Shown here piece after piece: positions 4,961 to 20,830 of a stretch of DNA of 25,296 bases (position 1 is its first letter; each line of letters starts with the position of its first letter). This DNA is from Alphaproteobacteria bacterium UBA2954 (GTDB lineage Bacteria; Pseudomonadota; Alphaproteobacteria; Puniceispirillales; Puniceispirillaceae). Below the pieces are notes generated by a model, which was given only the letters and a program-made list of their open reading frames with translations, was not told where the DNA came from and made no database searches. The position numbers and the translations under genes are program-made. The stretch is taken from positions 1 through 25,296 of the forward strand of contig DEBO01000023.1 of the NCBI GenBank assembly GCA_002348585.1, in the 5' to 3' direction.

Positions 4961-4989
4961 TTGACTCAATGATTGTGATTGAAGACAAT
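4961..4989 (+). promoter_or_regulatory. Sigma70-type promoter of the dps unit
   Basis: TTGACT at 4961-4966 is separated by 17 bases from GACAAT at 4984-4989. This gives a 5/6 match at -35 and 4/6 at -10 with ideal spacing, and it lies 45 bases before the first ORF. The Fur box begins at the last base of the -10 element, consistent with repression by iron-loaded Fur. Confidence 0.55.
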
Positions 4990-5003
4990 GAGAATGATTA
5001 TCA
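4989..5003 (+). promoter_or_regulatory. Fur box upstream of the dps unit
   Basis: TGAGAATGATTATCA matches the 7-1-7 Fur consensus TGATAATnATTATCA at 13 of 14 defined positions. It covers the expected transcription start of the promoter at 4961-4989, so Fur binding would block initiation. A fur-family gene is present at 10129-10569, and two similar boxes lie upstream of the DUF4856 operon. Confidence 0.75.
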
Positions 5004-5033
5004 ATATTTTTTTGATTATGGTCTCCAATAATA

Positions 5034-5405
5034 ATGATACTAAAAAATGTAGATATTACATTATTGGAAAGAGCTAGAGCTTGCGCGATGGAGGTGCGAG
5101 CGTACCCCCGCTTAGATATTCTAAAAGCTTGTCAGCTAATTTCGCTCGATATCGATTTACTCAGTTCAGAAATGCTTGAAATATTCATCAGATCACTGCC
5201 AGAGGCCTTTGGACGACAAATCGTAATTCATAAACCAGGGACTAAGCAATTGTCTTGGGACGAAAAGTGGCTCCTCTCAATCATTGAAGTAGTCTCAAGA
5301 GCAGATTATGACAGCGTTCATTTTCTAATTCGGTCTGCAGTTAAACGAAAACATCGCCGTGAGTTTTTGACAATAGCCCATGAACTCTGGAAAATTTCAG
5401 CTTAA
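5034..5405 (+). CDS. Hypothetical protein in a Fur-controlled unit with dps
   Basis: A 123-residue protein, predicted mostly helical and soluble, with no signal peptide or membrane segment. It has an acidic middle (IDLLSSEMLEIF), a LSWDEKWLLSIIEVVSRAD segment and a basic region AVKRKHRREF near the end. I do not recognise a family. It starts 31 bases after the Fur box and lies 58 bases before dps on the same strand with no terminator between, so it is probably cotranscribed with dps and induced by iron limitation. No strong Shine-Dalgarno is seen before the ATG. The helical character and basic patch would allow nucleic-acid or protein binding, but that is speculation. Confidence 0.6.
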   Translation: MILKNVDITLLERARACAMEVRAYPRLDILKACQLISLDIDLLSSEMLEIFIRSLPEAFGRQIVIHKPGTKQLSWDEKWLLSIIEVVSRADYDSVHFLIRSAVKRKHRREFLTIAHELWKISA

Positions 5406-5463
5406 TATCATCCAAACGCTCACCTTTTAAGTAACAAAAACAAATGGAGAAGGAGCTGTGAAG

Positions 5464-5934
5464 ATGGAAAAGCTTAAATCTGCTATCGCACCTAGCAACA
5501 GAGAGGCAATAGCCAATGCGCTATACCAATGTGTAAGCGAAACCGCAGTCACTACCATGCTCGCCCAGAATTATCATTGGAACGTTACTGGAATGGCATT
5601 TGGTCCGCTGCACAAATTATTTCAAGAAATTTATGAAGACCATTTCGCTGCGCAAGACGAACTGGCAGAAAGAATGAGAGCGCTGGGGTCTTTTGTTGAC
5701 GGCAATCTAACATCTATGGTCAATCAATCAAAGGTGACCGAATGTGAAAGCCAAATCTCAGCGGTTGATATGATCAAAAACATGGTGAACGCTCAAGAAA
5801 CTCTGGGTTCAACAAATGCGGGTGCTAGTGATATCGCGGCCTCTCACGGCGACAAACTGACGGAAGACCTTTGTATCGAGAGAGGTCAAATCCATGAAAA
5901 ATTTGCCTGGATGCTTAGGTCACATATCGAATAA
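5464..5934 (+). CDS. dps: Dps family DNA-protecting ferritin-like protein
   Basis: Dps proteins form 12-subunit shells that oxidise Fe(II) with hydrogen peroxide and store the iron, protecting DNA. This 156-residue protein has the family core: NYHWNVTG with His38, LHKLFQEIYEDH with His50, and QDELAERMRALG with Asp65 and Glu69. These correspond to the inter-subunit ferroxidase ligands His51, His63, Asp78 and Glu82 of E. coli Dps; the fifth, Asp67, is Gln54 here, next to Glu55. I chose the ATG at 5464 because AAGGAG at 5450-5455 lies eight bases before it; a GTG two codons earlier (5458) is the alternative. Control by the Fur box at 4989 is inferred. A terminator follows 25 bases after the stop. 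Confidence 0.93.
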   Translation: MEKLKSAIAPSNREAIANALYQCVSETAVTTMLAQNYHWNVTGMAFGPLHKLFQEIYEDHFAAQDELAERMRALGSFVDGNLTSMVNQSKVTECESQISAVDMIKNMVNAQETLGSTNAGASDIAASHGDKLTEDLCIERGQIHEKFAWMLRSHIE

Positions 5935-5959
5935 TCAGCAAAAAATTAGTGTAATTTGC

Positions 5960-5984
5960 GGGGCTTATTAGGCCCCTTTTTTTT
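5960..5984 (+). terminator. Rho-independent terminator after dps
   Basis: A GGGGC/GCCCC stem (5960-5964 with 5972-5976) with a seven-base loop is followed directly by eight T residues. It begins 25 bases downstream of the dps stop and closes that unit. Confidence 0.85.
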
Positions 5985-6124
5985 ACGCGCAAAAGCTGCT
6001 TGCCAATGTCCACAACCGCCCATTTTCTCCTGCTGGAAAATGAGCATGGAGATAAACTCATTGATCTAAGGCCGCCTCTCAAGTTTCTTTGAAATTTCTT
6101 TCTGCTCTTTGGTCATAGAACAGC

Positions 6125-6440
6125 CTATGCAATGTCCCTCGCGTTTAAATTTACATACACCGATACAAAGACTATTTTTCCTTCCCATTCACTTAGATCC
6201 GCAAACCAGGGTTTAATACCATTGCCACTTTTTTGGTACCCGCCATTCTGGAATTTCAGGATTGATTTGGCTGTAAAACTTGCATGTCGGCATAAATGCT
6301 TTTTGAGCAGTTTTTTCTTGAACATCAACTAAACAGGTATAGTAACGGTTTATTGCTTCCCGCTTCAATTCTGCGGGAAATTTACCATCCGGTTTCATTG
6401 ATGATGCGTTGCGCCTGCGGCGAGTTATCCGCAATAACAT
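6125..6440 (-). pseudogene. Possible frameshifted remnant downstream of the iron-binding protein gene
   Basis: Two overlapping minus-strand frames (6440-6213 and 6328-6125) would join into one reading of about 105 codons if one base were changed in the six-T run at 6229-6234. The joined C-terminal part would read KPWFADLSEWEGKIVFVSVY and end shortly after; the upstream part contains INRYYTCLVDVQEKTAQKAF. The first frame overlaps the end of the iron-binding protein gene. I do not recognise a family, and a chance pair of ORFs is the alternative. The rest of 5985-6381 holds only weak inverted repeats (6021-6027 with 6036-6042, and 6357-6363 with 6373-6379) and no RNA gene I can identify. Confidence 0.25.
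6357..6379 (-). repeat. Short hairpin just after the iron-binding protein gene
   Basis: TTCCCGC at 6357-6363 pairs with GCGGGAA at 6373-6379 across a nine-base loop. It starts three bases past the TAA at 6382. There is no T run on the minus strand, so it is a poor terminator, but it could protect the 3' end of the operon transcript. Confidence 0.35.
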
Positions 6441-7392
6441 TCATTGGCAACATATCCATTTTGAATGTGCCCCATGACGCTACCTCATCGCTCAATTTCG
6501 AATTTGGATTGACTGGGTACTCAAAATTCACTTTTGTATATATTTGTTGCGCCTCTTCAGAAGTTACCCACTCCAAAAATGCTCGCGCTACATCCTTTTT
6601 CTTTGAACCTTTTGTAATGCCAGCTGCTGAAATGTTAACATGTTGACCTCTGCCGTCTTGGTTGAAGAACGCAATCTCTATCGCATTAGCCCATTTTTGC
6701 TGCTCTGGTTTATCTTTGGCAAATTTCATCTTGCCATAATAGTAAGTATTCATGAGAGCTAAATCACATTGGCCTGAATAAATGGCTTTTGCCTGTGCTC
6801 TGTCATTACCCTGCGGCCGACGGGCTAGGTTATCAACAAGTCCAAGAGTCCAGTTCTTTGCAGCTTCTTCACCGTTGTGTGCAATAAGTGAAGCTAAAAC
6901 AGCGCGATTATAAACATGGCTACCTTTTCGCGAGCACACTCTTCCTTGCCATTTTGGCGAGGCTAGGTCCTCAATTGTTGTAATTGCCTCTTTGCCAACA
7001 CGTTCTTTTGAAACTGCAATTATTCGGGCTCTTAAGGACAAAGCCGTCCATCTATCATTGGCATCACGCAGGTGGCTTGGTACATGTTTGTTAAGTGTGT
7101 CTGATGCTAACGGCGCCAAAAGACCTGTATCGGCCAATTCCTTTATTCGGCTGATGTCTACAGTAAGCACTAGGTCAGCTTCTGTGCGTTCCCCCTCAGC
7201 TTTGAGACGAGCTGCTAGTCCCTTTGGCGAATAAACAGTCTGGAATTTTACCCCAGTCTTTTTTGTATAAGCCTCAAGAATAGGCTCTAACAGAAAAGGC
7301 TGACGGTGTGTATAAATTCCCAAGCTCTCTGCCCATGCAGTCCCGCTGCTGATGACTGCCATAAGAAAAACTCCAAATATAGCTCTTAACAT
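6382..7392 (-). CDS. Periplasmic Fe(III)-binding protein of an iron ABC transporter, FbpA/FutA-like
   Basis: A 336-residue extracytoplasmic solute-binding protein. Residues 1-21 are a signal peptide (cleavage after AWA). The mature start SLGIYTHRQ places Tyr27 at the first iron ligand. Tyr161 in SHVYNRAV and the run YYY (217-219) in MNTYYYGKM match the tyrosine ligands of FutA/FbpA proteins that clamp ferric iron. The length is normal. The ATG at 7392 overlaps the stop of the upstream hydroxylase gene by seven bases, and AAGGAG inside that gene serves as its ribosome binding site, so the two are coupled. It is the last gene of a Fur-box operon. No permease or ATPase gene lies nearby; those must be elsewhere, or the protein acts with another partner. 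Confidence 0.88.
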   Translation of the reverse strand: MLRAIFGVFLMAVISSGTAWAESLGIYTHRQPFLLEPILEAYTKKTGVKFQTVYSPKGLAARLKAEGERTEADLVLTVDISRIKELADTGLLAPLASDTLNKHVPSHLRDANDRWTALSLRARIIAVSKERVGKEAITTIEDLASPKWQGRVCSRKGSHVYNRAVLASLIAHNGEEAAKNWTLGLVDNLARRPQGNDRAQAKAIYSGQCDLALMNTYYYGKMKFAKDKPEQQKWANAIEIAFFNQDGRGQHVNISAAGITKGSKKKDVARAFLEWVTSEEAQQIYTKVNFEYPVNPNSKLSDEVASWGTFKMDMLPMNVIADNSPQAQRIINETGW

Positions 7393-8420
7393 TTTCTGGT
7401 CTCCTTAAATTCTTCATTCGCTTCCTGCTTCGAGATATAATTGTAGTTCCTAAAAATCGTATTTTTCGTTCTTGCCAACGAACAAATACTCTCTGCCGCT
7501 TTAATAAACGGAAGAAAATACATATGCCCTATCGTCTTTGTGTATTGTTTTGTTTCTGAGCCAATACCGAAAGTGAAAGGGGCGTTAGTCGAATGCAGAA
7601 AAGTACCTGCCATTCTATCCCAGACAGACAAAGCCACTCCAAAATTCTTATCAAAATGCTTGATGTCGCTAGAATGATGCAAATGATGTTGAGCAGGAGA
7701 CATCAAAATGCGTTCAACTACTTTAGGGTATTGAATAGAAATATGTGAATGGCGTAGGTTCGAGCCTAGCCCATGAAATAGTATTACAAATACATTTACA
7801 CCGAGAATGGTTACTAAGTTTAGTTGTTGGCCAAACAAAAACAAAAAAATAGCAATGGTCGTTCCTTGAACCACAGCGCTGCGCAGAGTAAACAGCACGC
7901 CTTCAACTGGATGAGCTCTTGTTACCGTGAGCGGAGTTAATGTTTCTGCACTATGGTGAAACTTGTGGAATTCCCAGAGTAAAGGCACCTTGTGAAGTGC
8001 GTAATGCATTGCGAAGCGAGCAAAGTCATCGAGCAAGAAAAAGCAAGTGGTGAAAAGTAAAGCTGATAGCGCGTATGATGTGTCACTGAAAACCCCCAAT
8101 GGGAAGAGATTTTGGTAATGGAGGAAGTGATACAAAGCAGTTGCCACTGCAATTTGTGTTATCAGCATTGGCCTGAGAGCCACAAACAGGACACGGTTTA
8201 TGAAAAAACAAACCACATCTAACTTACTCGATCTACTCAACCAAACCACTGGCGAAAAAATGGTTTTAAAAACCTGTTTTACATTGTTGTGGCGGAGCAA
8301 ATATAACCATAAAAACGAGATTAAAAAGGCTGTGAACAAGTAACCCAAAAATAATCGTTTTTTTGGATTCAGAAATTGTCCCAAAATATCTGTTTGAAAA
8401 AGTTCTAAATATTCAGCCAT
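7386..8420 (-). CDS. Membrane di-iron hydroxylase, sterol desaturase / fatty acid hydroxylase superfamily
   Basis: An integral membrane protein of about 344 residues whose histidine clusters bind a di-iron centre that hydroxylates or desaturates lipid-like substrates using O2. The motifs are complete: HYALH (139-143), HKFHH (152-156) and HHLHH (245-249), with extra His residues at 170, 216 and 224. Several hydrophobic helices precede and separate them. The frame is open to 8465, but I chose the ATG at 8420 because the region upstream is occupied by a perfect 12-bp hairpin. It lies between the DUF4856 gene and the ferric-binding protein gene in an apparent operon with iron control. Its substrate is unknown. 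An iron-dependent oxygenase in an iron-limitation operon is unexpected and may point to lipid or siderophore modification. Confidence 0.85.
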   Translation of the reverse strand: MAEYLELFQTDILGQFLNPKKRLFLGYLFTAFLISFLWLYLLRHNNVKQVFKTIFSPVVWLSRSSKLDVVCFFINRVLFVALRPMLITQIAVATALYHFLHYQNLFPLGVFSDTSYALSALLFTTCFFLLDDFARFAMHYALHKVPLLWEFHKFHHSAETLTPLTVTRAHPVEGVLFTLRSAVVQGTTIAIFLFLFGQQLNLVTILGVNVFVILFHGLGSNLRHSHISIQYPKVVERILMSPAQHHLHHSSDIKHFDKNFGVALSVWDRMAGTFLHSTNAPFTFGIGSETKQYTKTIGHMYFLPFIKAAESICSLARTKNTIFRNYNYISKQEANEEFKETRKC

Positions 8421-8433
8421 TGGGGCAAACCCG

Positions 8434-8466
8434 ATTGCAGGGGGAAGAACTGGCTCCCCCTGCAAT
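8434..8466. repeat. Perfect 12-bp intercistronic hairpin
   Basis: ATTGCAGGGGGA (8434-8445) is the exact reverse complement of TCCCCCTGCAAT (8455-8466), with a nine-base loop. It lies between the DUF4856 stop (8480) and the hydroxylase start (8420). Neither strand has a T run after the stem (minus strand continues CGGG), so it is more likely an mRNA processing or 3'-end stabilising element than a simple terminator, giving more DUF4856 protein than downstream products. Confidence 0.75.
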
Positions 8467-8479
8467 TTCTTGCCGGTCC

Positions 8480-9880
8480 CTAATCGTTTTCGGCACTGTC
8501 GCTCGAGCCCAATACCTTTGCGATATCCGCTATACCAGACAGTTTGTCATTGTTTTTGGCTGTCACTCCAAACTCATCTTCCATTAATTTCTGGACTTTG
8601 AGCATGTGCACCATGTAGCTGTCTATGGTCCTATCTTTCATGGTGAAATTACCGTTACCATCAACGCCGTCTACTTGCTTTGGCATCATGTTAAGACTTG
8701 CCGGAGAAACACTACCTACAACCGGACCATGGCCAATTAGTCGATCCATTTTCACACCAACTTCGCCGAGGTTTTGACCACTTGTATGCAAAGATAATGC
8801 AAAACCTTTTAACTCGCCCCAATGCTTTACATACTTCCGATATAATTTTCCATCGCCTGGAGTTGCCTTAAGCTTTTCAAGGTCTCCATAAACACTGCCA
8901 GCGTACTTAAATACAGCTTCAGCGATTACTTTTTCCCAGTTTGAACAAATAATTCGCGCTTTTCCTTTGAGATCTGAGCGTGCACTATTGCTCAGTGCCT
9001 GACCTTTAGCATCGACAATTATTTGACGACCATCAATAAAAGCTTGGGTGATGGTGTTGTAGTAATCTGTTACACCACCTTTATCGAACGATGATGCATA
9101 ATAAGCGTGAGCGTAATTCATTTCCGACTTCAAATTAACAACACCATCGCCATTGGCATCGGCTGCGCCCATATCTTTCTTCTTTGCTATATCATAGTTT
9201 TGTCGAGCAGAGAGTGTAGCGCCGTGTGCCGCAGCTCCCCAGTAGCCAAAGCCCTCGTCCCAAGAATGCTCCTTACCAGTGTAATGCTTTCCTTTTTTGT
9301 AAGGCTTGTTGTTAGGCTTATTGTCAGCCTCTAACTTCTCGTCAAGATAATTATCGCATGCTTGATGGTAGAACACCGCACCCATAGCAAATTTCGATAC
9401 AAGCTGGGTATAGTCATATCCGTGTTCCGCATCAAAACCTTTGTTTGATGCAGCTCCGCGCTCAATCATCGAAGCAAGAACTTCCTTACCGGTCATATTT
9501 CCTGGCCAGCCATTTATAGCACCCTTGTAGGCCTTTCCTGACAAATTAGTTTTTGACACATCATTGATATTTGTCACATCTACCTTGAATTTATCACTGG
9601 ACTTTGGATCCAATAATTCAAGCGCTGAATCTGAGCCGTTAAAATAACCATTCAAGACATCAATAGAGGCACCTGAACTCATGGCTTTCTTCAAACTATT
9701 ATGGAGAAGCTGTCGACCAACTTGACCAGAGTAAGACACAGAATTCGTCTCGCCGCCCTGGTAGCCTAGGAGCGTTACAGGATACGGACCGTAAACATGA
9801 TTTGCGTGTCCATCCGCGAAAGCAGTGCCAGCACAAATAGCACCGGTTGCCGCCATCGCTATAAAATATGCAATTTTCAT
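8480..9880 (-). CDS. Secreted DUF4856 domain protein, Fur-box controlled
   Basis: A 466-residue exported protein of the DUF4856 family, whose function is not established. From the ATG at 9880, residues 1-22 are a signal peptide (cleavage after AFA). The family features are SYSGQVGRQLLHN (49-61), the tract SKFAMGAVFYHQACDNYLDE (162-181), HSWDEGFGYWGAAAH (205-219) and a late TIDSYMVHML. Residues 241-253 (DANGDGVVNL and a Glu three residues later) resemble an EF-hand or dockerin calcium loop. The frame opens at 9922, but that would run through a Fur box; the ATG at 9880 has AAGGAAGAG just before it and gives the signal peptide. It heads an operon with a membrane hydroxylase and a ferric-binding protein. 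A periplasmic or surface role in iron acquisition, similar to imelysin-type proteins, is inferred from context only. Confidence 0.8.
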   Translation of the reverse strand: MKIAYFIAMAATGAICAGTAFADGHANHVYGPYPVTLLGYQGGETNSVSYSGQVGRQLLHNSLKKAMSSGASIDVLNGYFNGSDSALELLDPKSSDKFKVDVTNINDVSKTNLSGKAYKGAINGWPGNMTGKEVLASMIERGAASNKGFDAEHGYDYTQLVSKFAMGAVFYHQACDNYLDEKLEADNKPNNKPYKKGKHYTGKEHSWDEGFGYWGAAAHGATLSARQNYDIAKKKDMGAADANGDGVVNLKSEMNYAHAYYASSFDKGGVTDYYNTITQAFIDGRQIIVDAKGQALSNSARSDLKGKARIICSNWEKVIAEAVFKYAGSVYGDLEKLKATPGDGKLYRKYVKHWGELKGFALSLHTSGQNLGEVGVKMDRLIGHGPVVGSVSPASLNMMPKQVDGVDGNGNFTMKDRTIDSYMVHMLKVQKLMEDEFGVTAKNNDKLSGIADIAKVLGSSDSAEND

Positions 9881-9906
9881 TTGCTCTTCCTTACCGAATA
9901 AATGTT

Positions 9907-9921
9907 TGAGAATCATTTTCA
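9907..9921 (-). promoter_or_regulatory. Fur box 1 of the DUF4856 operon
   Basis: Read on the plus strand, TGAGAATCATTTTCA matches the 7-1-7 Fur consensus at 12 of 14 positions. It lies just downstream of the -10 element, around the expected transcription start and 27 bases before the chosen start codon. Confidence 0.7.
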
Positions 9922-9926
9922 ATATA

Positions 9927-9956
9927 ATTCTTATTGAGAAAGATTATCAGTGTCAA
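9927..9956 (-). promoter_or_regulatory. Promoter of the DUF4856 operon
   Basis: On the minus strand, TTGACA (9956-9951) is a perfect -35; 18 bases later AAGAAT (9932-9927) matches the -10 at 4 of 6. One Fur box fills the spacer and another follows the -10, a textbook arrangement for iron repression. Confidence 0.6.
9935..9949 (-). promoter_or_regulatory. Fur box 2 of the DUF4856 operon
   Basis: Read on the plus strand, TGAGAAAGATTATCA matches the 7-1-7 Fur consensus at 12 of 14 positions. It sits in the spacer between the -35 and -10 elements, with its centre 28 bases from that of box 1, leaving room for two Fur dimers. Confidence 0.7.
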
Positions 9957-10128
9957 TAAAAAGAAGAGGAAATTAGTCCTATTTTAGATTATGGAACATT
10001 TACCTGCTTAAGTTCGTTAAAAATCACTCATGTTAAGCATGCTCGCAGCAAAGAGGTTAGTAGAGGATAAATATGTCTTCATGGTAACATTGGATTTTTT
10101 CACATCGTCTGCTTCAGGTTATCTTTTT

Positions 10129-10569
10129 TCAATAAACGTTAATTTGAATACAACCACATTCTGTATCGCCGCGTTTTTTACCAATAACTTCCACGCGAAA
10201 ATTCACAACATCATATCCCATCTCACCAATAGTTTTATTGATAAGTGCACTTAACTCATCATTCTTGAATTCATGTATACGACCGTTTTCTTCATCTACA
10301 AGATGGTTGTGGTCATCACGCTCAATTTCGAAACGAACTTTGCCGTCCTGCATATTTAATTTCCGGAGAATACCGACGTCTCCCAACAGATTCAAAGTGC
10401 GATATGTTGTTGCTACCGATATGGAACTATCTTTTTGTATCGCACGCCGGTAAATGAGGTCAGCGTCAGGATGGTCGTTGGACTCAACGAGTGTTTCAAC
10501 AATGAGAGCGCGTTGAGGTGTAAGCCGGATTTTTGCCTGCTTGAATCTTTCTTCAATCGGATAAGACAA
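10129..10569 (-). CDS. fur: Fur family metal-dependent transcriptional regulator
   Basis: A 146-residue regulator. The N-terminal winged helix has RLTPQRALIVETLVESNDHPDAD (residues 15-37), and the recognition helix contains SVATTYRTLNLLGDVGI (51-67). The C-terminal dimerisation domain has DDHNHLVDEENGRIHEF (85-101), with His87, His89 and Glu100 as likely metal ligands along with His33 and Glu81. The paired CxxC structural zinc motifs of E. coli Fur are absent; only Cys138 and Cys140 near the C-terminus exist. This is usual for alphaproteobacterial Fur/Mur proteins, some of which respond to manganese. It lies directly upstream of two Fur boxes and in a window with three, so it probably controls them. 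GGGA seven bases before the ATG at 10569 is the likely ribosome binding site. Confidence 0.9.
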   Translation of the reverse strand: MSYPIEERFKQAKIRLTPQRALIVETLVESNDHPDADLIYRRAIQKDSSISVATTYRTLNLLGDVGILRKLNMQDGKVRFEIERDDHNHLVDEENGRIHEFKNDELSALINKTIGEMGYDVVNFRVEVIGKKRGDTECGCIQINVY

Positions 10570-12128: not shown

Positions 12129-13253
12129 TCAATTCACAAATCTATCAGGTCGAAATGCTTCGAGTGAAATTCTTGGTTGCTGACCCATAACAAGGTCAGC
12201 TAATGCCTCACCAACACCCGGTCCCAATTGAAAGCCATGAGCTGAAAAACCAAAGCCATGAAAAAGGCCATTCTGCCTGCCACGTCCGATGATTGGTAAA
12301 TTGTCTGGCATGTAACCTTCTATACCTGACCAACAACGAACAACTTGAGCGTTGCCAATTTCTGAAAATAATTTAGATGCTAACTTCATCGATGAAGAAA
12401 GTTTTGGCAATAACACATCACTTTGGTTGATTGAGGGGCTTGCTTTTGACCTGACACCACCTCCTATTACAAACTGTCCGGTTTCAAGTTGCTTCAATGA
12501 CAAGGTGTGAGCAACCACGCCCATAACAGCAGGTAGTATTTTAGGACGCTTGTCTGTCACAACAAGCATGGGCGCATAAGCCTCAAGTGGGAAAATATGA
12601 TCATCTGCTAAGCGAGCGATACCTGCTGCCCATGCACCTGCACAATTCACTACACTTTCTGCTTCGAATAATCCTTTTGCTGTTTGAATTTGCCAAAAAT
12701 CTTGAAATTTCGTTAGAGATGTAACACGGCAATCTTCAATAATCTTTGCGCCATGCTTTTTAGCAACATTTGCAAAACCTTGCACAATTCGCCAAGGTGT
12801 TGCCCATCCATCACCCTCAACCAGAAGGCCACCATGTGTGGGCGTTGAAAGGTGAGGCAACCTTGCTTGTATATGATCATCCTCAACCCAGACCTCATGC
12901 GTGAAACCTGCCCTACTGAGGTCCTCTGCACGCATCAATCCAATTTCACGGCCAGCCTCATCAACCGCAACTTTCAGGTAAAAGCAGGGATGAAAGTCCT
13001 TTGCGTATTCACCGATTTCTTGATAAAGATTTTGCCATATATCCATTGCCGCTAAGCTAAGTGGAATTTCGAGGACATCACGGCCTAATCGACGCACGCC
13101 TCCTGCATTTACTCCAGATGCATGGCGTCCAATTCGGTCTTTTTCAATCAATGTTACATTTTGTCCACGTTTGGCTAAAAAATAAGCAGTGGCGCAACCT
13201 TGGATACCACCACCTATGATTAAAATCTTGTTACTTTGCAGGGACATTTTCAT
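12129..13253 (-). CDS. FAD-dependent oxidase, HcnC/OoxB/SoxB-like subunit
   Basis: A 374-residue DAO-family flavoprotein, the presumed substrate-oxidising subunit of a heteromeric dehydrogenase like hydrogen cyanide synthase HcnC, opine oxidase OoxB or D-hydroxyproline dehydrogenase. It has the FAD fold ILIIGGGIQGCATAYFLAKR (residues 10-29), RHASGVNAGGVRRLGRD near 43-59, and the C-terminal YMPDNLPIIGRG and GFGFSAHGFQLGPGVGEA segments. The ATG at 13253 overlaps the end of the HcnB-like gene by 23 bases, and a second ATG lies two codons later. It is the last gene of a seven-gene leftward operon. Which amine or amino acid it oxidises is not shown by sequence. Confidence 0.88.
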   Translation of the reverse strand: MKMSLQSNKILIIGGGIQGCATAYFLAKRGQNVTLIEKDRIGRHASGVNAGGVRRLGRDVLEIPLSLAAMDIWQNLYQEIGEYAKDFHPCFYLKVAVDEAGREIGLMRAEDLSRAGFTHEVWVEDDHIQARLPHLSTPTHGGLLVEGDGWATPWRIVQGFANVAKKHGAKIIEDCRVTSLTKFQDFWQIQTAKGLFEAESVVNCAGAWAAGIARLADDHIFPLEAYAPMLVVTDKRPKILPAVMGVVAHTLSLKQLETGQFVIGGGVRSKASPSINQSDVLLPKLSSSMKLASKLFSEIGNAQVVRCWSGIEGYMPDNLPIIGRGRQNGLFHGFGFSAHGFQLGPGVGEALADLVMGQQPRISLEAFRPDRFVN

Positions 13254-14628
13254 CAGCCATAGAGGCTAACTCGCCTACTGTAAGTGGGCGAATAGGTGGA
13301 CGTAATCTAAAATATCCTATGTCCTTTTCGAGGAGATTATTGTGATCAGCAATCATTTGTTGAATGGTCAGTCCGCACATTCTGCCCTGACATCGACCCA
13401 TACCAGCACGGCAAAAACTCTTCAGCTGATTTGGGCCCGCAACACCTAGAGAGATAGCAAGGGAAATATCTGCTTTTTTAAGTGCTTCACATCGACACAC
13501 TATAGTTTCATCATCAAAAGGAACGCGCCAATCTTTAGGAGGACGAAATAAATTATCCAGAAATGGCCGCGCCGCTGCATGCCTATATCTTTTAAATTTT
13601 GAGAGAAAAATACTAAAAATTGGAGGTCTGCGGCTGTATTGAAAAATACGTTTAGCTGCAGTTTTTCCTGACAATATTGCTGCGCCCACGCCTGCTATAC
13701 CGCTTCCATCACCAGCAACAAAAACACCCTTCAGGCTGCTTTCGCCATATATATTTGTCTCTGGATGCCAACATAGCTGGCGAGGACACCAATAGTGTTT
13801 TAGGCCCGTCGCCATCGTCAAATTGACATTTGGGACAACACCTTGATGAAGAAAGATATGAGATGCGAATAATTTTTTACTTTCTCCATACCTATCTATA
13901 AAACTCAAACTCTCAGCAGCAAACTGACCAGAAATAGAGACCTTTCTAACTTGGGAAAAATATTTAGTATTTTTGCGGATATAGGATTTCCAACGCAAAC
14001 CCTTTAGAAGAAGATTTAGCTGCAAAAGTGCTGGGATAGCCCGAAGATAATGATGCAAAGACAAGCGTGCTGGCGCAGTGTCAACAACTGCAACTATCTT
14101 AAGGCCAGCGATTAAATACTGCCAAATCGTTAGGTAAAATAATGGTCCTGAGCCTGCAAACACAGCCCCATCCACACCTGAATTATTGGATTTCAGAAGA
14201 GTTTGGGCACCACCTACGCTCATCACACCTGGTAGTGTCCAACCTGGAATTGGCATCGGACGTTCCATAGCTCCCGTTGAGATAAGAATAAAGTCTGCTT
14301 GCACTTGGTGCGCTAGGCCTTTTTGACTGAAAAAAATGAGCTTATCTCGTGTGATTTGCCAGACCCGGCTTTCCGATAAAAGTTCTGCTGATGAGTGCCA
14401 AAAATTGTCAACCAGCTTTTTACCTAGCCAGTAGTCTTCTCCCAAATAGGATAGCTCATCACTATTGTGATAATTTTTATCAATCTGTCTGTAAACTTGG
14501 CCACCTACTGCCGGCTGGTCATCCAAAACAAGCACCTTCAAATTATTTTTTGAAGCCTCGACTGCTGCGGCCATGCCCGCAGGGCCTGCGCCTATAATAG
14601 CTAAATCATAATGCTGATTTAAGCTCAT
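13231..14628 (-). CDS. NAD(P)/FAD oxidoreductase with BFD-like [2Fe-2S] domain, HcnB/OoxA-like subunit
   Basis: A 465-residue protein with a two-dinucleotide pyridine-nucleotide-disulfide-reductase fold and a C-terminal iron-sulfur module. GAGPAGMAAA (13-22) binds FAD; a second Rossmann motif GAVFAGSGPLFYL spans 154-166; GVFVAGDGSGIAGVGAAI (301-318) is the second FAD contact. Cys378, Cys380, Cys413 and Cys418 form the Fer2_BFD-type cluster. This architecture is that of HcnB, opine oxidase subunit A and the alpha subunit of D-hydroxyproline dehydrogenase, which pass electrons from the DAO subunit to the respiratory chain. It starts in an ATGA overlap with the preceding small [2Fe-2S] gene and overlaps the next gene, so the three subunits are translationally coupled. 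Confidence 0.9.
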   Translation of the reverse strand: MSLNQHYDLAIIGAGPAGMAAAVEASKNNLKVLVLDDQPAVGGQVYRQIDKNYHNSDELSYLGEDYWLGKKLVDNFWHSSAELLSESRVWQITRDKLIFFSQKGLAHQVQADFILISTGAMERPMPIPGWTLPGVMSVGGAQTLLKSNNSGVDGAVFAGSGPLFYLTIWQYLIAGLKIVAVVDTAPARLSLHHYLRAIPALLQLNLLLKGLRWKSYIRKNTKYFSQVRKVSISGQFAAESLSFIDRYGESKKLFASHIFLHQGVVPNVNLTMATGLKHYWCPRQLCWHPETNIYGESSLKGVFVAGDGSGIAGVGAAILSGKTAAKRIFQYSRRPPIFSIFLSKFKRYRHAAARPFLDNLFRPPKDWRVPFDDETIVCRCEALKKADISLAISLGVAGPNQLKSFCRAGMGRCQGRMCGLTIQQMIADHNNLLEKDIGYFRLRPPIRPLTVGELASMADENVPAK

Positions 14629-14918
14629 TTGCGTACCTTATTTCTATCTGAAATTGGGAGATAAATTTTCAGACCTTCCGTCGCATCAATCTGACAGGCC
14701 TGCTCACTTTGTCCATTCTCCAGGGTGATCATACAGTCAAAACAGACCCCCATCATACAATAGGGGCCTCTGGGCTCCCCATCTGGCGTAGTGTGCACTG
14801 CATAAATATTTTCACGCAGCAAAACAGCCGCTACTGTTTCCCCACTCATCGCGTTTGTGGGCTTCTCATCTATAAATATAGTAATATCTGCTTTATGAAC
14901 GTTAATGGGCCGAAACAT
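14625..14918 (-). CDS. (2Fe-2S)-binding small subunit, HcnA-like
   Basis: A 97-residue ferredoxin-like protein that would carry electrons within the HcnABC-type complex. Cys54, Cys59, Cys62 and Cys75 give the C-x4-C-x2-C-x12-C pattern of the small subunit of hydrogen cyanide synthase and opine/hydroxyproline dehydrogenases; GEPRGPYCMMGVCFDC is the core. The frame is open to 14990, but the ATG at 14918 gives the family length and is preceded by AGAAAGG. It overlaps the upstream DAO gene by 17 bases and the downstream gene by four (ATGA), a sign of a single tightly coupled operon. Confidence 0.88.
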   Translation of the reverse strand: MFRPINVHKADITIFIDEKPTNAMSGETVAAVLLRENIYAVHTTPDGEPRGPYCMMGVCFDCMITLENGQSEQACQIDATEGLKIYLPISDRNKVRK

Positions 14919-16014
14919 CAAACCGCCTTTCTGTAAAAGCTTGAAGGCCGACGCCAAAATTTCCCGCCTCGATATCCGCGGCCATATCAAAGCAATGAGC
15001 TGCCGCTAGGGTTACGCCACTATGGCATGTTATTGCAAAGCCGCCTGGACAACTTTCTGATTGGTCATAAATAGGAAAACCATCGGGTGACATTACACGG
15101 AGAGCTGCCCAACTACGTATGATTTGTTGTTTTTCTAGCACTGGTAAGGTCCTTCTGGCACGATCTGCGATCTGAGCCATAATGTCGATCGATGAACTTA
15201 TATCAAAACCTACTTCTTCTTTACTATCACCGATCATGATACTCCCCTCTGCTGTCTGTCTTAATAGAGTCATCGGGACATCAATAAGCTTGTCAATTTT
15301 TTGCGTAACTAAAATTTGACCTTTCTGGGGTCTTACAGGTTGTTTGAGCCCGATAAGGGGAGCAAGTTTGTGATTACCCAATCCGGCTGCAAGAACTAGA
15401 CAAGGCGCTTGATATTTTCCTTTTCTACTGAACACATCGAAAACACCCTCTCCATGAGTAATGTCAAACACCTCTGCGTCATGAAGCGACTGGCCGTTGC
15501 GTTTTAAAAAACAATTATGAAGACTTCTTAAAAGATAAAGCGGGTTTACATGGCCATCGTGTGGACACCATGAACCGCCAACCACATCTGACCCAAGGCC
15601 CGGCTGAATATCCAGTAGGGCTTTTCTATCAAGCATTTCATATTTGAATTTACCATTCTGATGTGAATAGAGAATTTCAAGTTGAGCTTTGCGATCTGCA
15701 AATTCCTTTTCACTCAAGCAAATATGGATTCCTCCATCTTGCTCTAGTGCAAGAGAGAGGTCACCGTATTCCTGTAACTCATCACGTAATTCAGACCAAA
15801 GTTCTGATGAACGCATAGTCCAATCCGCATATGCAGGAAACCCTTTGCCCTTGCCCTGAACCCAAACAAGACCAAAGTTGCCCCTCGCAGCTTTAAAATC
15901 TGTATCTGAAGAGTCCAAGAGAAGACAGTCATGTCCACGGCGTACAAGACCGTATGCGACGCTTAAGCCGATCACCCCTCCTCCAACAATAATCACATCA
16001 AAATTTGTTTTCAC
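14902..16014 (-). CDS. FAD-dependent amino acid oxidase (DAO family)
   Basis: A flavoprotein of 370 residues from a GTG start at 16014. I prefer this start because it overlaps the TGA of the upstream gene as GTGA, and the FAD fold follows at once (FDVIIVGGGVIGLSVAYGL); the frame is open to 16074 but that adds 20 unlikely residues. Further DAO features are NFGLVWVQGKGKGFPAY, GGSWCPHDGHVNPLYLLR, RPQKGQILVT and a terminal CHSGVTLAAAHCFDMAADI. It is similar in type to the HcnC-like subunit encoded three genes downstream and might be an alternative or additional catalytic subunit of the same complex. The substrate is unknown. Confidence 0.87.
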   Translation of the reverse strand: MKTNFDVIIVGGGVIGLSVAYGLVRRGHDCLLLDSSDTDFKAARGNFGLVWVQGKGKGFPAYADWTMRSSELWSELRDELQEYGDLSLALEQDGGIHICLSEKEFADRKAQLEILYSHQNGKFKYEMLDRKALLDIQPGLGSDVVGGSWCPHDGHVNPLYLLRSLHNCFLKRNGQSLHDAEVFDITHGEGVFDVFSRKGKYQAPCLVLAAGLGNHKLAPLIGLKQPVRPQKGQILVTQKIDKLIDVPMTLLRQTAEGSIMIGDSKEEVGFDISSSIDIMAQIADRARRTLPVLEKQQIIRSWAALRVMSPDGFPIYDQSESCPGGFAITCHSGVTLAAAHCFDMAADIEAGNFGVGLQAFTERRFDVSAH

Positions 16015-17273
16015 TTGAACCTGTCTATTCTGTAAGGTGTCAAATCCACGCCAGATTTTTTGCCCATTATGCAATCAGCGATGATCTGGCCAGTGTTTGG
16101 AGCTTGACCCAATCCGTAATGAGAATGACCAAAGGCTGCAAATAGCCCTTTTAGATTTGAAACGGGGCCAATACATGGCAGGCTGTCAGGAAAAGTAGGG
16201 CGCCGCCCCATCCAAGGTTCAGCGTGTTCAACGTCAATCAACGGAAACAAATTCTTTAATGCTTTTTTGAAAACAAAAGCACGGCGATAGTCCGGCTCCG
16301 CATCAATGCCTGCAAATTCTGCTGTTCCAGCTATCCGAATTCCACTTTCCATCTGGCTTGCAACGCACATGCGTTCAACATCCATGATAGAATGGTTTAT
16401 GGTTATGCCCGGATTTTGACACAAAAGATGATAGCCACGCTCAGCCTGCAAAGGCAAATCATAACCAAAGGGTCTCAAAAGTGAAGCAGACCAAACCCCT
16501 GCAGCGAGAACTAATTTATCTGAAAAATATCTGTTTTCTCCACAATTTGTCACCCAAACATTTTCATCTTTTTGAATAAATTTTACTTTAGATTGAAAAA
16601 ATTTTACCCCCAAAGCCCTTGCTTTTGAGACCAAACCTTTCCCAATCGCATGAGGATCCAATGCGCGCGCTTGTTCGTGTATCAAAATTGCAGCCTGGAA
16701 ATCCGGGGATATGCTAGGCTCCAATTCTTGCAATTCTGCTGCAGTTATTAAGCTGAGTGGCACATTACGTTTCTTCCTCATTTGCCACCCAAAAAGGTCA
16801 AAACTAGCCTGCTCAGCCTTCTTATATGCAAAAATATAATATGAGTCTTTCACTAGTTCTAATTCAGAAGTTTCTGAGAGAAGTTCGCGGTAATGTGATG
16901 GTGAACGATTGCTGAGCACCATCATGGCATCGCCAATTTGTTCAACCTTTTCTATCTTTCCCGCTTGTAAAAATTTTAATCCCCAAGGAAGAAAAGAAGC
17001 TAAATAACGTTTCCGGATAAAAATAGGACCTTCCGGGTCAATAACCCACTTTGGCAGCTTTTTCCATAAACCTGGAACTGATTGAGGTACACAACTCCAT
17101 GGTGATATAACACCAGCATTTCCAAAACTCGCCCCCTGACAGGGCGCATTGCTATCAACCAGAGTCACAGAAAGGCCACGTTCGACCAACTTTAAGGCAC
17201 AACAAATGCCAATTATTCCGGCGCCAATAATGACAACATCGCTTTTTTCATTTTCGTGTTGAGTGACACTCAT
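16011..17273 (-). CDS. D-amino acid dehydrogenase-like FAD oxidoreductase (DadA-like)
   Basis: A 420-residue flavoprotein resembling the small-subunit D-amino acid dehydrogenase DadA, which deaminates D-amino acids to 2-oxo acids and feeds electrons to quinone. DVVIIGAGIIGICCALKLVE (residues 12-31) is the FAD fold; QGASFGNAGVISP (43-55) is the typical DadA segment; PLQAERGYHL and WMGRRPTFPDSLPCIGP, with the final GHSHYGLGQAPNTG, are conserved in the DadA family. The length is close to DadA (about 430). It is the third gene of the operon after the TRAP transporter, and the next gene overlaps its stop. A specific D-amino acid or N-substituted amino acid is not indicated. Confidence 0.88.
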   Translation of the reverse strand: MSVTQHENEKSDVVIIGAGIIGICCALKLVERGLSVTLVDSNAPCQGASFGNAGVISPWSCVPQSVPGLWKKLPKWVIDPEGPIFIRKRYLASFLPWGLKFLQAGKIEKVEQIGDAMMVLSNRSPSHYRELLSETSELELVKDSYYIFAYKKAEQASFDLFGWQMRKKRNVPLSLITAAELQELEPSISPDFQAAILIHEQARALDPHAIGKGLVSKARALGVKFFQSKVKFIQKDENVWVTNCGENRYFSDKLVLAAGVWSASLLRPFGYDLPLQAERGYHLLCQNPGITINHSIMDVERMCVASQMESGIRIAGTAEFAGIDAEPDYRRAFVFKKALKNLFPLIDVEHAEPWMGRRPTFPDSLPCIGPVSNLKGLFAAFGHSHYGLGQAPNTGQIIADCIMGKKSGVDLTPYRIDRFK

Positions 17274-17379
17274 AGGCTCTAACCCGTTTAAACGCTGACG
17301 GCCTCAGTCTTCTGCACAATTCTTTTTTGGTTTATTTGATTTGAAGGCCGTTTGTGGTGTCCATTTCCCAAAGCATGAA

Positions 17380-17396
17380 TTGTTTCTGTGAAACAA
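17380..17396. repeat. Small hairpin after the TRAP permease gene
   Basis: TTGTTTC (17380-17386) pairs with GAAACAA (17390-17396) around a three-base loop, 15 bases past the permease stop. There is no T run on the minus strand. A second, more distant pair (ACGGCCT at 17298 and AGGCCGT at 17345) lies in the same 137-base gap. Either could modulate read-through into the oxidase genes. Confidence 0.25.
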
Positions 17397-17410
17397 ATTT
17401 TGCCATCTTC

Positions 17411-19501
17411 TCATGTCCTTTGTTTAGCGGATTTGAAGTGAAAATATTGAGCAATTTGTAGGAAAAGAACTGGGGACGCAAATATCAACGCGTAAATTGT
17501 TGACGTCCACGAAGGTGCAACAAGGTAGATACCCGCCAGCCCGAACAACACTCGGCTCGGTCCATTCATTGAAACAAGAAAGTATCCTGCCACAGAGGCA
17601 GATAAGAGAAAAACCCCCAGGCTACAGGTTATAACTGTGTGAAGAAATTCATGCCAAGTAAAATAGTCATCCAGCACAATCAGCATCGCAGGCGAATAAA
17701 CAAACACCATAGGCACAATCAGTTTCCCAATGCCAAGAGAAAAGGCAGAGAGCCCGGTTCTAAATGGGTTGGAGCCCGCTATTCCCGCAGCAGCATAAGC
17801 AGATGCGCAAACTGGAGGCGTTATTTCAGATATTACCCCGTAATACAGCACAAACAAATGTGACGCTAATGATGGCACACCAAGATTACCAAGAGCAGGC
17901 TGGGCAACAGTTGCAAGCATGATGTAAAGAGCGGTTGTTGGTAGCCCAGCGCCCATAAAAATACAAGTAACCGCAATCATGATAAGCGAGATAAAAAGTG
18001 TTATATCTTGAAGGCTAAAATCAGCAAACGGGAACCAAGAAATTAACGGCAAGGTTGCCTCACCGAAGTTAACCGCAACTTCCGTAACCATAAAACCTAG
18101 GCGGAACCCCAATCCGGTTGTGTTTACAACCCCAACAACGATGCCAATGGCGGAACAGACTGCACCAACAGCAAGAGCATATTTAACCCCGGTCACGCAG
18201 CCGTCCATGATATCATTGAGGCCTATGCGGTGCATCGGGTTAATGAAACCAACAACTAATGCAGTGGTTATGCCCCAAAAGGCTGCCATGTGTGGAGAGT
18301 ACCCACTAAAAAGCACATAAATTAAAACTGCGAGTGGTATAGCAGTAGGCCAGCCTCTTTTTAGCACATCCCACAGTTTTGGGATTTCAGAGTCTGGCAT
18401 GCCTCTCAACCCAAGGCGCTTAGCCTTAAAATGAACAATCGATATAACACCAATATAATGCATGGCAGCTGGAACTAGCGCAGCCAAGATTATTGTAGTG
18501 TAAGGAAGCTCAAGAAATTCTGCCATGACAAAGGCAGCTGCACCCATAATTGGGGGAGTAATTTGACCGCCTGCGCTTGATGCCGCTTCAACACCTCCCG
18601 CTAGGTGACCGGGATATCCCATCCTTTTCATATTTGGAATTGTCAAAGAACCAGTGGATACAGTGTTTGCTATTGACGACCCTGATATGGTCCCAAAAAA
18701 AGCTGAGGACACAACACTAACCTTTGCTAGTCCGCCCGTGTAACGCCCTGCTGCTACCGTTGCAATATCAACGAAGAATTGGCCTAATCCCATTCGCTGG
18801 GCGAGTATGCCAAATAGAACAAAATGGAATACCACCGTTGAAACAATCCACAGCGTTACCCCAAAAATGCCCTCTTCCGGGAAGTACATACTATTAATAA
18901 AAAGGTCCCAGCTGACACCTGGGTGTTTAAGAATTTGGAAAGGCATATACATGCCAAACACCGCATATACCGTAAATATACAGATAATAATGGGTACGAT
19001 TATACCAAGAGTTCGACGCACAGCCTCCAGTAAAACACACACGAGAATTGTTCCAAAAACCACGTCAATTCTTGCAGGGTTCCCCTGACGCATTACCTGG
19101 TCAGGCAGTTGAAAACGTTGACCGAGAAATTCGAAATCGATCTCGTACCAGGTAATGCCAACGTAATATGCCGAGGAGACACCGGCGATTATCAAAACCC
19201 AGTCCCAAATCGGCACGTTTCCATATATCCACCAACTGTTGGGCTTAAGCGAACTAGCACTTTTTCCACGAATAGCTGGAAATCCAATAAATACCAAAAT
19301 CATCACTCCAGCCATGTGCGAACCCATGTGCCAGTAATCTATGGGCACGCCGATACCAGAAGTAATGTAGTGGTACGCTGCGAAAAGTATTGAAAAAAAG
19401 TATGTGAACTTTAATAAATTTGGTCCAATAACGCGGGTCTGAAGGCCAGAGTCATATTTCTTCTCTAACTCCTCAGCTTCTTTAATATTAATCTCAGCCA
19501 T
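17411..19501 (-). CDS. TRAP transporter permease, fused DctQ-DctM type (TAXI family)
   Basis: A 696-residue inner-membrane protein that imports organic substrates delivered by a periplasmic binding protein, using a sodium or proton gradient. The N-terminal 170 residues hold several helices corresponding to the small permease; the DctM-like domain follows, with the hallmark GTISGSSIANTVSTGSLTIP (270-289), GYPGHLAGGVEAASSAGGQI (295-314) and ITPPIMGAAAFVMAEF. A second repeat contains GAGLPTTALYIMLATVAQPA and ISEITPPVCASAYAAAGIAG. The hydrophobic C-terminal 100 residues match the extension typical of TAXI-type fused permeases. It lies about 110 bases downstream of the TAXI binding-protein gene across a terminator-like hairpin, as expected where the binding protein is needed in excess. 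Confidence 0.93.
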   Translation of the reverse strand: MAEINIKEAEELEKKYDSGLQTRVIGPNLLKFTYFFSILFAAYHYITSGIGVPIDYWHMGSHMAGVMILVFIGFPAIRGKSASSLKPNSWWIYGNVPIWDWVLIIAGVSSAYYVGITWYEIDFEFLGQRFQLPDQVMRQGNPARIDVVFGTILVCVLLEAVRRTLGIIVPIIICIFTVYAVFGMYMPFQILKHPGVSWDLFINSMYFPEEGIFGVTLWIVSTVVFHFVLFGILAQRMGLGQFFVDIATVAAGRYTGGLAKVSVVSSAFFGTISGSSIANTVSTGSLTIPNMKRMGYPGHLAGGVEAASSAGGQITPPIMGAAAFVMAEFLELPYTTIILAALVPAAMHYIGVISIVHFKAKRLGLRGMPDSEIPKLWDVLKRGWPTAIPLAVLIYVLFSGYSPHMAAFWGITTALVVGFINPMHRIGLNDIMDGCVTGVKYALAVGAVCSAIGIVVGVVNTTGLGFRLGFMVTEVAVNFGEATLPLISWFPFADFSLQDITLFISLIMIAVTCIFMGAGLPTTALYIMLATVAQPALGNLGVPSLASHLFVLYYGVISEITPPVCASAYAAAGIAGSNPFRTGLSAFSLGIGKLIVPMVFVYSPAMLIVLDDYFTWHEFLHTVITCSLGVFLLSASVAGYFLVSMNGPSRVLFGLAGIYLVAPSWTSTIYALIFASPVLFLQIAQYFHFKSAKQRT

Positions 19502-19549
19502 TTTTTCGACCTTAAAATATCTTAGGGACTTAAATATCGTTTTCTAGAT

Positions 19550-19587
19550 AAAAAATTACAGAGGCTTCGATAAAAACCTCTGTAATT
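19550..19587 (-). terminator. Intercistronic terminator/attenuator between TAXI protein and TRAP permease
   Basis: An 11-bp perfect inverted repeat (19554-19564 with 19577-19587, AATTACAGAGG and its complement) with a 12-base loop is followed on the minus strand by a run of six T (19555-19550). It lies 22 bases after the binding-protein stop. Partial termination here would lower expression of the permease and oxidase genes relative to the binding protein. Confidence 0.75.
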
Positions 19588-19609
19588 AAAATTTATTACC
19601 TCATGATTT

Positions 19610-20605
19610 CTAATTCATCATGCCCTTTTCTTTGTAGAATTTTGCAGCACCCGGATGAACTGGTATTAAAACGCCTTTTAGCGCTGTGTCGAGTTGGATC
19701 GCTTTACCCTTTGAATGACCCTTATCGAGAAGAGCTCTAGTCTTATCGCTCCACAGTGCTTTAGTGATACCGTAAATCAGCTCTTCAGGCTGGTCTATTG
19801 ATGTTACTAATTGTCCATTTACAGCCACAGTTGCTACGTCATAGCCAATTGTCTCATAGGTGCCCGCGGGAATTTTTGACTCAACGTAGTAAGGAATGAT
19901 TTTATTAATTTCTTTCTGTTCTGCTGAAGAGAAATTATAAAGTTCGAAGCCTTTGGTTGAGCCTAGCTGAATGAGCGCGGCGAACGGTGTTCCACCAGCA
20001 TAGAAAAACGCATCCAACTGACCGTCAGCTAAGCGCTGAGCACTCTGTTTGAGACCCAATTCGTTTTCTTTCACTGATATACCGTAATGCTTCAAGATCA
20101 TCTTAACAGAGACCTGTGTTCCGGAACCGGCAGATGCAACACCTACACGCTTACCTTCTAGGTCTTTCAGGCTATTAAGTTTTGCACCTTTCGGCAGAAC
20201 TAAATGCATGTCTTCTGGATAAAGGTTAGCAATGATACGAACCTTGTCTTTTTTGTCACCTTTGAATTTGCCAGTACCCTCAAAGCCTTGAGTTACACTT
20301 TGTGCTCCAGCTAAACCAGCTTCAAGGTTTCCAGCCTGAACTGCATTCATGTTGAAAACAGATGCATTTGTCGAAACAGCGATTGCTACTAGACCGGGAA
20401 CTCCGCAAGTTCCACCTTTGTCGCATGAGCGAGCCCCTGGAGGACTAGAAATGGCGTTAGCAATAAGACCACCGATCGGAAAATAGGTGCCACCAGCACC
20501 GCCCGTCCCAATTCTGAAAAATGTCATATCAGCTGCTTGGGCAACCCCGCCCATCGCAAAAAGCGAAACAAGAGCTGTTGCGAATAGTTTCTTCAAATAT
20601 CTCAT
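19610..20605 (-). CDS. TAXI family TRAP transporter substrate-binding protein
   Basis: A 331-residue periplasmic receptor. From the ATG at 20605, residues 1-24 form a signal peptide ending VAQAAD. The mature start FFRIGTGGAGGTYFPIGGLI is the TAXI signature (GTG-GGTYYP-like); the GARSCDKGGTCGVPG insert, NMNAVQAG, GVASAGSGTQVSVKMILKHY and VHPGAAKFY segments are also typical. AAGGAGGAG lies three bases before this ATG, so the upstream in-frame start at 20632 is unlikely. It is the first gene of the operon, divergent from lysR. Known TAXI substrates include glutamate and related amino acids, which fits the amino-acid oxidases downstream, but the ligand is not determined. Confidence 0.92.
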   Translation of the reverse strand: MRYLKKLFATALVSLFAMGGVAQAADMTFFRIGTGGAGGTYFPIGGLIANAISSPPGARSCDKGGTCGVPGLVAIAVSTNASVFNMNAVQAGNLEAGLAGAQSVTQGFEGTGKFKGDKKDKVRIIANLYPEDMHLVLPKGAKLNSLKDLEGKRVGVASAGSGTQVSVKMILKHYGISVKENELGLKQSAQRLADGQLDAFFYAGGTPFAALIQLGSTKGFELYNFSSAEQKEINKIIPYYVESKIPAGTYETIGYDVATVAVNGQLVTSIDQPEELIYGITKALWSDKTRALLDKGHSKGKAIQLDTALKGVLIPVHPGAAKFYKEKGMMN

Positions 20606-20768
20606 ATTCTCCTCCTTTATTTTTATGTCCAAACTTGTGTTTCACTTAGAATTCTGGCGTAACCATATCAGGCACTGAAAAGCTTAATCAGCCAAGAAAC
20701 CAGAACACACCACTCATTATATAATAAAGTAGACAACCGAACGCCTATTTAACCAAATTATAAAAACT

Positions 20769-20801
20769 GTTATAATTATAAGTTATTCTTATAATTATAA
20801 C
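20769..20801. promoter_or_regulatory. Perfect 14-bp inverted repeat, probable LysR operator
   Basis: GTTATAATTATAAG (20769-20782) and its exact complement (20788-20801) are separated by five bases. Each arm is itself nearly palindromic (ATAATTAT). It lies 29 bases before the lysR start codon and about 50 bases upstream of a TATAAT-like sequence on the minus strand (20721-20716) that could be the -10 of the TAXI operon. This position suits a LysR-type binding site that represses lysR and activates the operon. Confidence 0.65.
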
Positions 20802-20830
20802 CTAATTGACGACTTCATTTGGAGATTAAC

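Follow-up and report, generated by a model that had tools for sequence, protein, structure and literature searches.

A DUF4856 protein paired with a membrane hydroxylase in a candidate iron-acquisition operon of Alphaproteobacteria bacterium UBA2954

Background

Three groups of described proteins come closest to a three-gene operon on the minus strand of contig DEBO01000023.1 of Alphaproteobacteria bacterium UBA2954 (assembly GCA_002348585.1; 1.79 Mb, 78 percent complete), in which genes for a DUF4856 protein, a membrane protein of the FA_hydroxylase family and an FbpA-like ferric-binding protein stand in a row 3′ of two 12/14 matches to the Fur box. The window, i.e. the whole stretch of 25,296 nucleotides analysed here, is contig 47 of this assembly. 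With the FbpABC/FutABC (SfuABC) transporters the operon shares the FbpA-like binder, and in many of its relatives an FbpB-like permease and ATP-binding cassette (ABC) ATPases adjoin; canonical fbp operons, in contrast, have to our knowledge no DUF4856 and membrane hydroxylase genes ahead of the binder gene. The EfeUOB/imelysin (M75) systems resemble the operon in combining an extracytoplasmic helical protein with an enzyme using O2 or peroxide and with an importer, and imelysin itself is present in a second version of the operon found in five genera. OlsE/Scs7p-type hydroxylases (PF04116) have histidine boxes, hydrophobic helices and possibly a distant likeness of fold in common with the membrane protein, which however stays below the OlsE equivalog cut-off (48.9 bits versus 475), is tied to DUF4856 and lies in a single frame with FbpA in many genomes. 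Two published studies bear on the comparison: the SfuC protein was up 27-fold in iron-limited Pelagibacter (PMC2864753), and the EfeUOB/imelysin operons use a heme peroxidase (PMC3143127), whereas here a di-iron-type hydroxylase is predicted and DUF4856 was not recognised as an imelysin.

A literature search, directed mostly at papers outside subscription, found none containing DUF4856 or PF16148 and none in which an imelysin, a TonB-dependent receptor and a sterol desaturase occur together. Among the papers listed by the searches, no recognised system places a lipid-hydroxylase-type enzyme in iron uptake, and we know of none. The Shewanella operon SO1188-SO1190 was considered as a related system and rejected, being unrelated by its printed annotation.

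Results

Relatives of the operon were collected from genome contigs, where 229 stretches were matched, 202 of these encoded relatives and the best 80 loci were kept. The hydroxylase gene was located directly 3′ of the DUF4856 gene in 79 of the 80 loci, and the contig ends in the 80th. In a sample of the class, DUF4856 was found in 10 of 385 genomes, and the same 10 genomes carried, adjoining DUF4856, a hydroxylase scoring at least 400 bits, against 278 bits at most elsewhere; linked hydroxylases supplied the profile, which thus favours them, the gap being wide nonetheless. Among 61 genomes of the family, DUF4856 was present in 16 and the hydroxylase in 18, which included all 16. In the two genomes with the hydroxylase only, the gene lies near a contig end, in one case with a cut DUF4856 gene alongside; in G430, which belongs to the 16, the two genes are split across two contig ends. 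A sample of the phylum yielded DUF4856 in 10 of 398 genomes, two of which were the window's genome and G107. All 10 carry the hydroxylase in one gene run with DUF4856. In all eight loci newly read the hydroxylase gene was downstream on the same strand, directly in three and after two genes in five. The linked hydroxylase was the genome's best hydroxylase match in these eight genomes, in G107 and in G001, and the separation by score was not clean at this level, one DUF4856-linked hydroxylase reaching 265 bits versus 278 bits for an unlinked alphaproteobacterial one. Protein distances of DUF4856 and hydroxylase were correlated with r 0.953 across 55 loci. Around the next-best hydroxylases (about 189-278 bits), no partner, ABC ATPases included, was seen in more than 3 of 20 regions. 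On these counts DUF4856 and the membrane enzyme of the FA-hydroxylase superfamily form a near-inseparable pair.

The relatives include SAR116, MarineAlpha5, Pelagibacteraceae and Rhodobacteraceae records, many of them from uncultured marine bacteria; among DUF4856 relatives whose source carries a name, those of SAR116 genomes come closest, and one homologue bears the name Candidatus Puniceispirillaceae, so that the host probably belongs to this family. Thalassovita, a culturable carrier, is also among the named relatives. A sequence-only reading of the window had called for a search for co-occurrence of DUF4856, hydroxylase and FbpA-like genes in other genomes, and a conserved neighbourhood was indeed found in the 80 loci as well as in the class, family and phylum samples.

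The most frequent third partner is FbpA. Of the 74 loci with space for it, 50 have the FbpA gene next after the hydroxylase gene, and in 5 loci it adjoins DUF4856 from the opposite strand. An FbpB-like permease gene is present in 35 loci, immediately 3′ of FbpA in 32, and ABC ATPase genes are often close by. Eight of the 10 class-sample loci, window included, have FbpA after the hydroxylase, and 3 of these encode both in one open reading frame (ORF). A search with such a fused hydroxylase-FbpA protein of 673 residues found 520 proteins, of which the best 120 were examined: all 120 (query included) contained both domains and covered 98-100 percent of the query, the histidine boxes were retained in 120/120 and the tyrosine pair in 114/120. 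Culturable genera named among the homologues include Nisaea and Terasakiella. The junction of the fused protein retains a signal-peptide-like stretch, so that the product may be cleaved post-translationally into two proteins.

In five genera outside the Alphaproteobacteria, probably Gammaproteobacteria, the run of genes is DUF4856, imelysin, TonB-dependent receptor and hydroxylase. For two receptors tested the best NCBIfam match was TonB-siderophor, below its cut-off. The proposal that the trio forms a distinct iron module thus held in that a conserved module tied to iron exists, its core however comprising DUF4856 and the hydroxylase only; FbpA is a frequent third part which is replaced by imelysin and TonB receptor in the five genera. 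Further arrangements were observed in single loci. In the alphaproteobacterial genome G641 (L200, 6067-10557) the pair adjoins genes for an imelysin and a Dps-like protein, the latter recalling the Dps gene near the window's operon. In L031 (3552-6877) the place of FbpA after the pair is taken by a tandem of ORFs (559 and 549 aa), neither with a Pfam match at E 1e-8.

In the window, the first gene of the operon (8480-9880, minus strand) encodes a DUF4856 protein of 466 aa with an N-terminal signal-peptide-like stretch and a mostly helical predicted model of high confidence (predicted local distance difference test, pLDDT, 91.7). ATG 9880 is most likely its start, rather than TTG 9922, because most aligned homologue rows begin there. 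The protein scored 47.2 bits against PF16148 (cut-off 22.3), the best stretch being profile positions 108-247 of 358. Conserved stretches of DUF4856 include KEHSWDE and NYAHAYY. A GxHxxE motif is missing from the window's protein and the pattern is present in 5 of 62 aligned rows; its histidine is also missing from some imelysins (PMC3143127). The hydroxylase gene (7386-8420, minus strand) most likely starts at ATG 8420, with an alternative TTG start at 8465, and its product scored 80.9 bits against PF04116 (cut-off 31). The three histidine boxes HYALH 139, HKFHH 152 and HHLHH 245 have histidines invariant across 39 rows. The FbpA/FutA-like periplasmic protein of 336 aa (6382-7392, minus strand) matched solute-binding families and solved Fe(III)-binding proteins (1q35, E 3e-77; 2pt1, E 2e-70). 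At GIYTHRQ 25, SHVYNRA 158 and NTYYYGK 215 it lines up with 1q35 tyrosines which we take to be ligand positions. As had been read from the sequence, the three genes run in one direction and a seven-base overlap, ATGTTAA (7386-7392), joins the hydroxylase stop to the FbpA start. The absence of the FbpA permease and ATPase was likewise borne out, neither being found within the window. A homologue of the permease is located elsewhere in the genome, broken by contig ends (C10:9108-10178 and C148:33-422), and a 12/14 Fur-box match (C10:8963-8977) lies about 85 bases 5′ of its probable start. FbpC was not found on these two contigs, to which the search was limited.

Between DUF4856 and hydroxylase genes an intercistronic hairpin with a 13-bp stem and a 7-nt loop is predicted at 8434-8466 (minus strand), with z -2.02 against dinucleotide shuffles, 10 of 200 of which fold equally well. 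A z of -2 or lower was obtained for 48 of 61 distinct DUF4856 junctions versus 36 of 155 other co-directional junctions of the same loci, whereby junctions of less than 20 bases were omitted, identical sequences were counted once and the shuffles kept single-base content only. The hairpin sequences vary between clades, and in the phylum loci a z of -2 was reached in 5 of 8 junctions. The hairpin would likely leave DUF4856 in excess of the downstream product, as in operons that require a surplus of their binding protein.

Upstream of DUF4856, both Fur boxes of the sequence-only reading were recovered with 12/14 matches to the Fur-box consensus, one in the promoter spacer (9935-9949) and one close to the presumed transcription start (9907-9921). 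The TTGACA hexamer proposed with them lies at 9956-9951, within a sigma-70-like match TTGACA-18-AAGAAT (9927-9956, minus strand; 10/12) which is the top one of seven in 6200-10300. Matches of this kind are not enriched over shuffles (7 versus 9.2 expected), so that this promoter is weak evidence. Fur-box sites with at most two mismatches number four in the window, the operon pair and two elsewhere, while shuffles average 0.24 and none of 100 reach four; genome-wide, the pattern gave 29 sites versus 7 for a reversed control. Close relatives with the same trio (L026, L029, L030) carry two Fur boxes of 13-14/14 in the same region.

For the wider comparison, 76 distinct upstream regions from the 80 loci were used, window excluded. 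A Fur box of at least 12/14 was found 5′ of DUF4856 in 10/76 regions versus 7/825 for other genes, and one of 14/14 in 4/76 versus 1/825; the four other-gene matches of at least 13 belong to opposite-strand neighbours of DUF4856 (L024, L085, L088, L098). Inverted repeats of the Irr type, at 12/14 or better, were present in 26/76 versus 25/825, all 26 from one group of related loci. Predicted iron-responsive sites hence recur in some clades. Fur-family genes were called within the stretch in 11 loci, window included, and Irr-like genes in 7, with one member per relative family tested in addition to the window's gene. This gene (10129-10569, minus strand; PF01475, 104 bits) is located upstream of the operon on the same strand; all of its nine NCBIfam matches were below cut-off. 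In some Rhodobacteraceae loci RirA-type (iron-rhodo) boxes were spotted by eye, and in L201 (7356-8330) an AraC-type regulator gene lies 5′ of the pair on the same strand.

Discussion

Taken together, the conserved pairing, the single frame with a ferric binder, the imelysin/TonB alternative and the Fur or Irr control predicted for some of the loci mark out iron acquisition as by far the likeliest role of the operon, and this role is held with high confidence. More specifically, the operon is read here, with a probability of about 0.6, as an uncharacterised type of iron-acquisition system whose core consists of a secreted helical protein and an O2-activating membrane di-iron enzyme and which is coupled to either FbpABC or a TonB receptor. 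DUF4856 would then probably be a binder of iron or of an iron chelate. For the hydroxylase, action on an iron ligand or in iron handling, and not on bulk lipid, is put at slightly less than even odds. The widest formulation would make DUF4856 and the membrane di-iron enzyme an oxygen-dependent machine for iron acquisition, of a new class, whose hydroxylase is physically coupled to the ferric-binding protein and processes an iron ligand or a carrier lipid, served by FbpABC in marine bacteria and by imelysin and a TonB receptor in others; this version is rather doubtful.

According to the proposed mechanism, iron shortage would cause the Fur-type repressor (Irr in other clades) to leave the promoter, and the hairpin after the first gene would render DUF4856 the most abundant product. 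DUF4856 would act as an extracytoplasmic trap for iron or an iron chelate, and the membrane di-iron enzyme would use O2 to modify a substrate needed for the iron to be captured, released or carried across the membrane, after which FbpA would hand Fe(III) on to FbpB/FbpC. The di-iron hydroxylase would thereby supply an oxidative step parallel to that of the heme peroxidase in EfeUOB and imelysin operons. The sequence-only reading had regarded an iron enzyme under iron repression as paradoxical; this argument was judged weak, since iron enzymes, e.g. heme oxygenases and siderophore reductases, are common in iron-uptake operons under Fur control.

Several observations weigh against this interpretation. 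The 80 loci lean toward close relatives and 26 of them have identical downstream neighbours, so that their counts are not independent. Of the 74 loci with room, 24 have no FbpA directly after the hydroxylase; in 4 of the 24 it is encoded on the opposite strand, and several such loci showed no recognised iron gene. A Fur box of at least 12/14 is missing in 66 of the 76 upstream regions, many of which are also without an Irr-type box, and is present in only 1 of the 8 phylum loci read; Irr-type boxes of 14/14 were found in 0/76 regions versus 1/825 other genes. The predicted DUF4856 model gave no significant structural match and hence no iron site was located. Relatives of the hydroxylase with solved structures have their active site on the cytosol side, and a direct periplasmic reaction is difficult to envisage with such a topology. 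Finally, a second, C-terminally shortened DUF4856 copy in G420 (L187) has no adjoining hydroxylase. This orphan copy (5942-7273) lies near SpoIIE-like, guanylate-cyclase and SiaC genes.

The main rival is membrane-lipid remodelling, in which iron stress would lead the hydroxylase to hydroxylate an aminolipid or acyl chain and so adapt the membrane housing the uptake parts, with no iron chemistry of its own. It is unlikely though far from negligible, and leaves the near one-to-one bond to DUF4856 and the single frame with FbpA unexplained. The constant partnership with an O2-using enzyme, and the occurrence of the pair with either TonB receptors or FbpA/FbpB, would also suit a processing of heme or organic chelates, with DUF4856 as hemophore or chelate binder, the membrane enzyme opening the ligand oxidatively and FbpA taking the freed Fe(III). 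The TonB-siderophor matches of the two receptors point the same way, albeit below cut-off, whereas no heme-binding family matched DUF4856 in Pfam and NCBIfam profile scans and the probable cytosolic position of the active site is unfavourable; this explanation is improbable.

Given the near-exclusive pairing and the C-terminal END of DUF4856, conserved in 22/22 close and 53/62 wider rows, the hydroxylase might instead hydroxylate DUF4856 before or during export and so create metal-binding side chains. Topology is unfavourable and we know of no protein hydroxylase in the superfamily; this explanation is considered quite improbable. Chance neighbourhood of genes with ordinary separate roles would fit the patchiness of the module, DUF4856 being found in 0/7 other genomes of the genus, and is contradicted by the co-occurrence in the 79 of 80 loci and in the three taxonomic samples and by the distance correlation; it is scarcely credible.

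Growth in the ocean is widely iron-limited, and many carriers of the pair are uncultured marine bacteria. The fixed pairing with an O2-using membrane enzyme, often in one frame with a ferric binder, offers DUF4856 a first testable role, and an iron-acquisition system of the proposed type would, if true, bring an enzyme of the lipid-hydroxylase type into iron uptake.

Other features of the window

A 13/14 Fur-box match at 4989-5003 precedes an ORF of 123 aa (5034-5405) that matches no Pfam family and a Dps/ferritin-like gene (5458-5934), and the region 4989-5934 is a probable second iron locus adjoining the operon. Another 13/14 match (14468-14482) lies within the ORF 13231-14628. The genes at 12129-22704 encode FAD-dependent oxidoreductases, one with a sarcosine-oxidase A3 domain, parts of a TRAP transporter (DctM, NMT1-like), a LysR regulator and an arginase-family protein, a cluster that looks like one for the catabolism of amino-acid derivatives.

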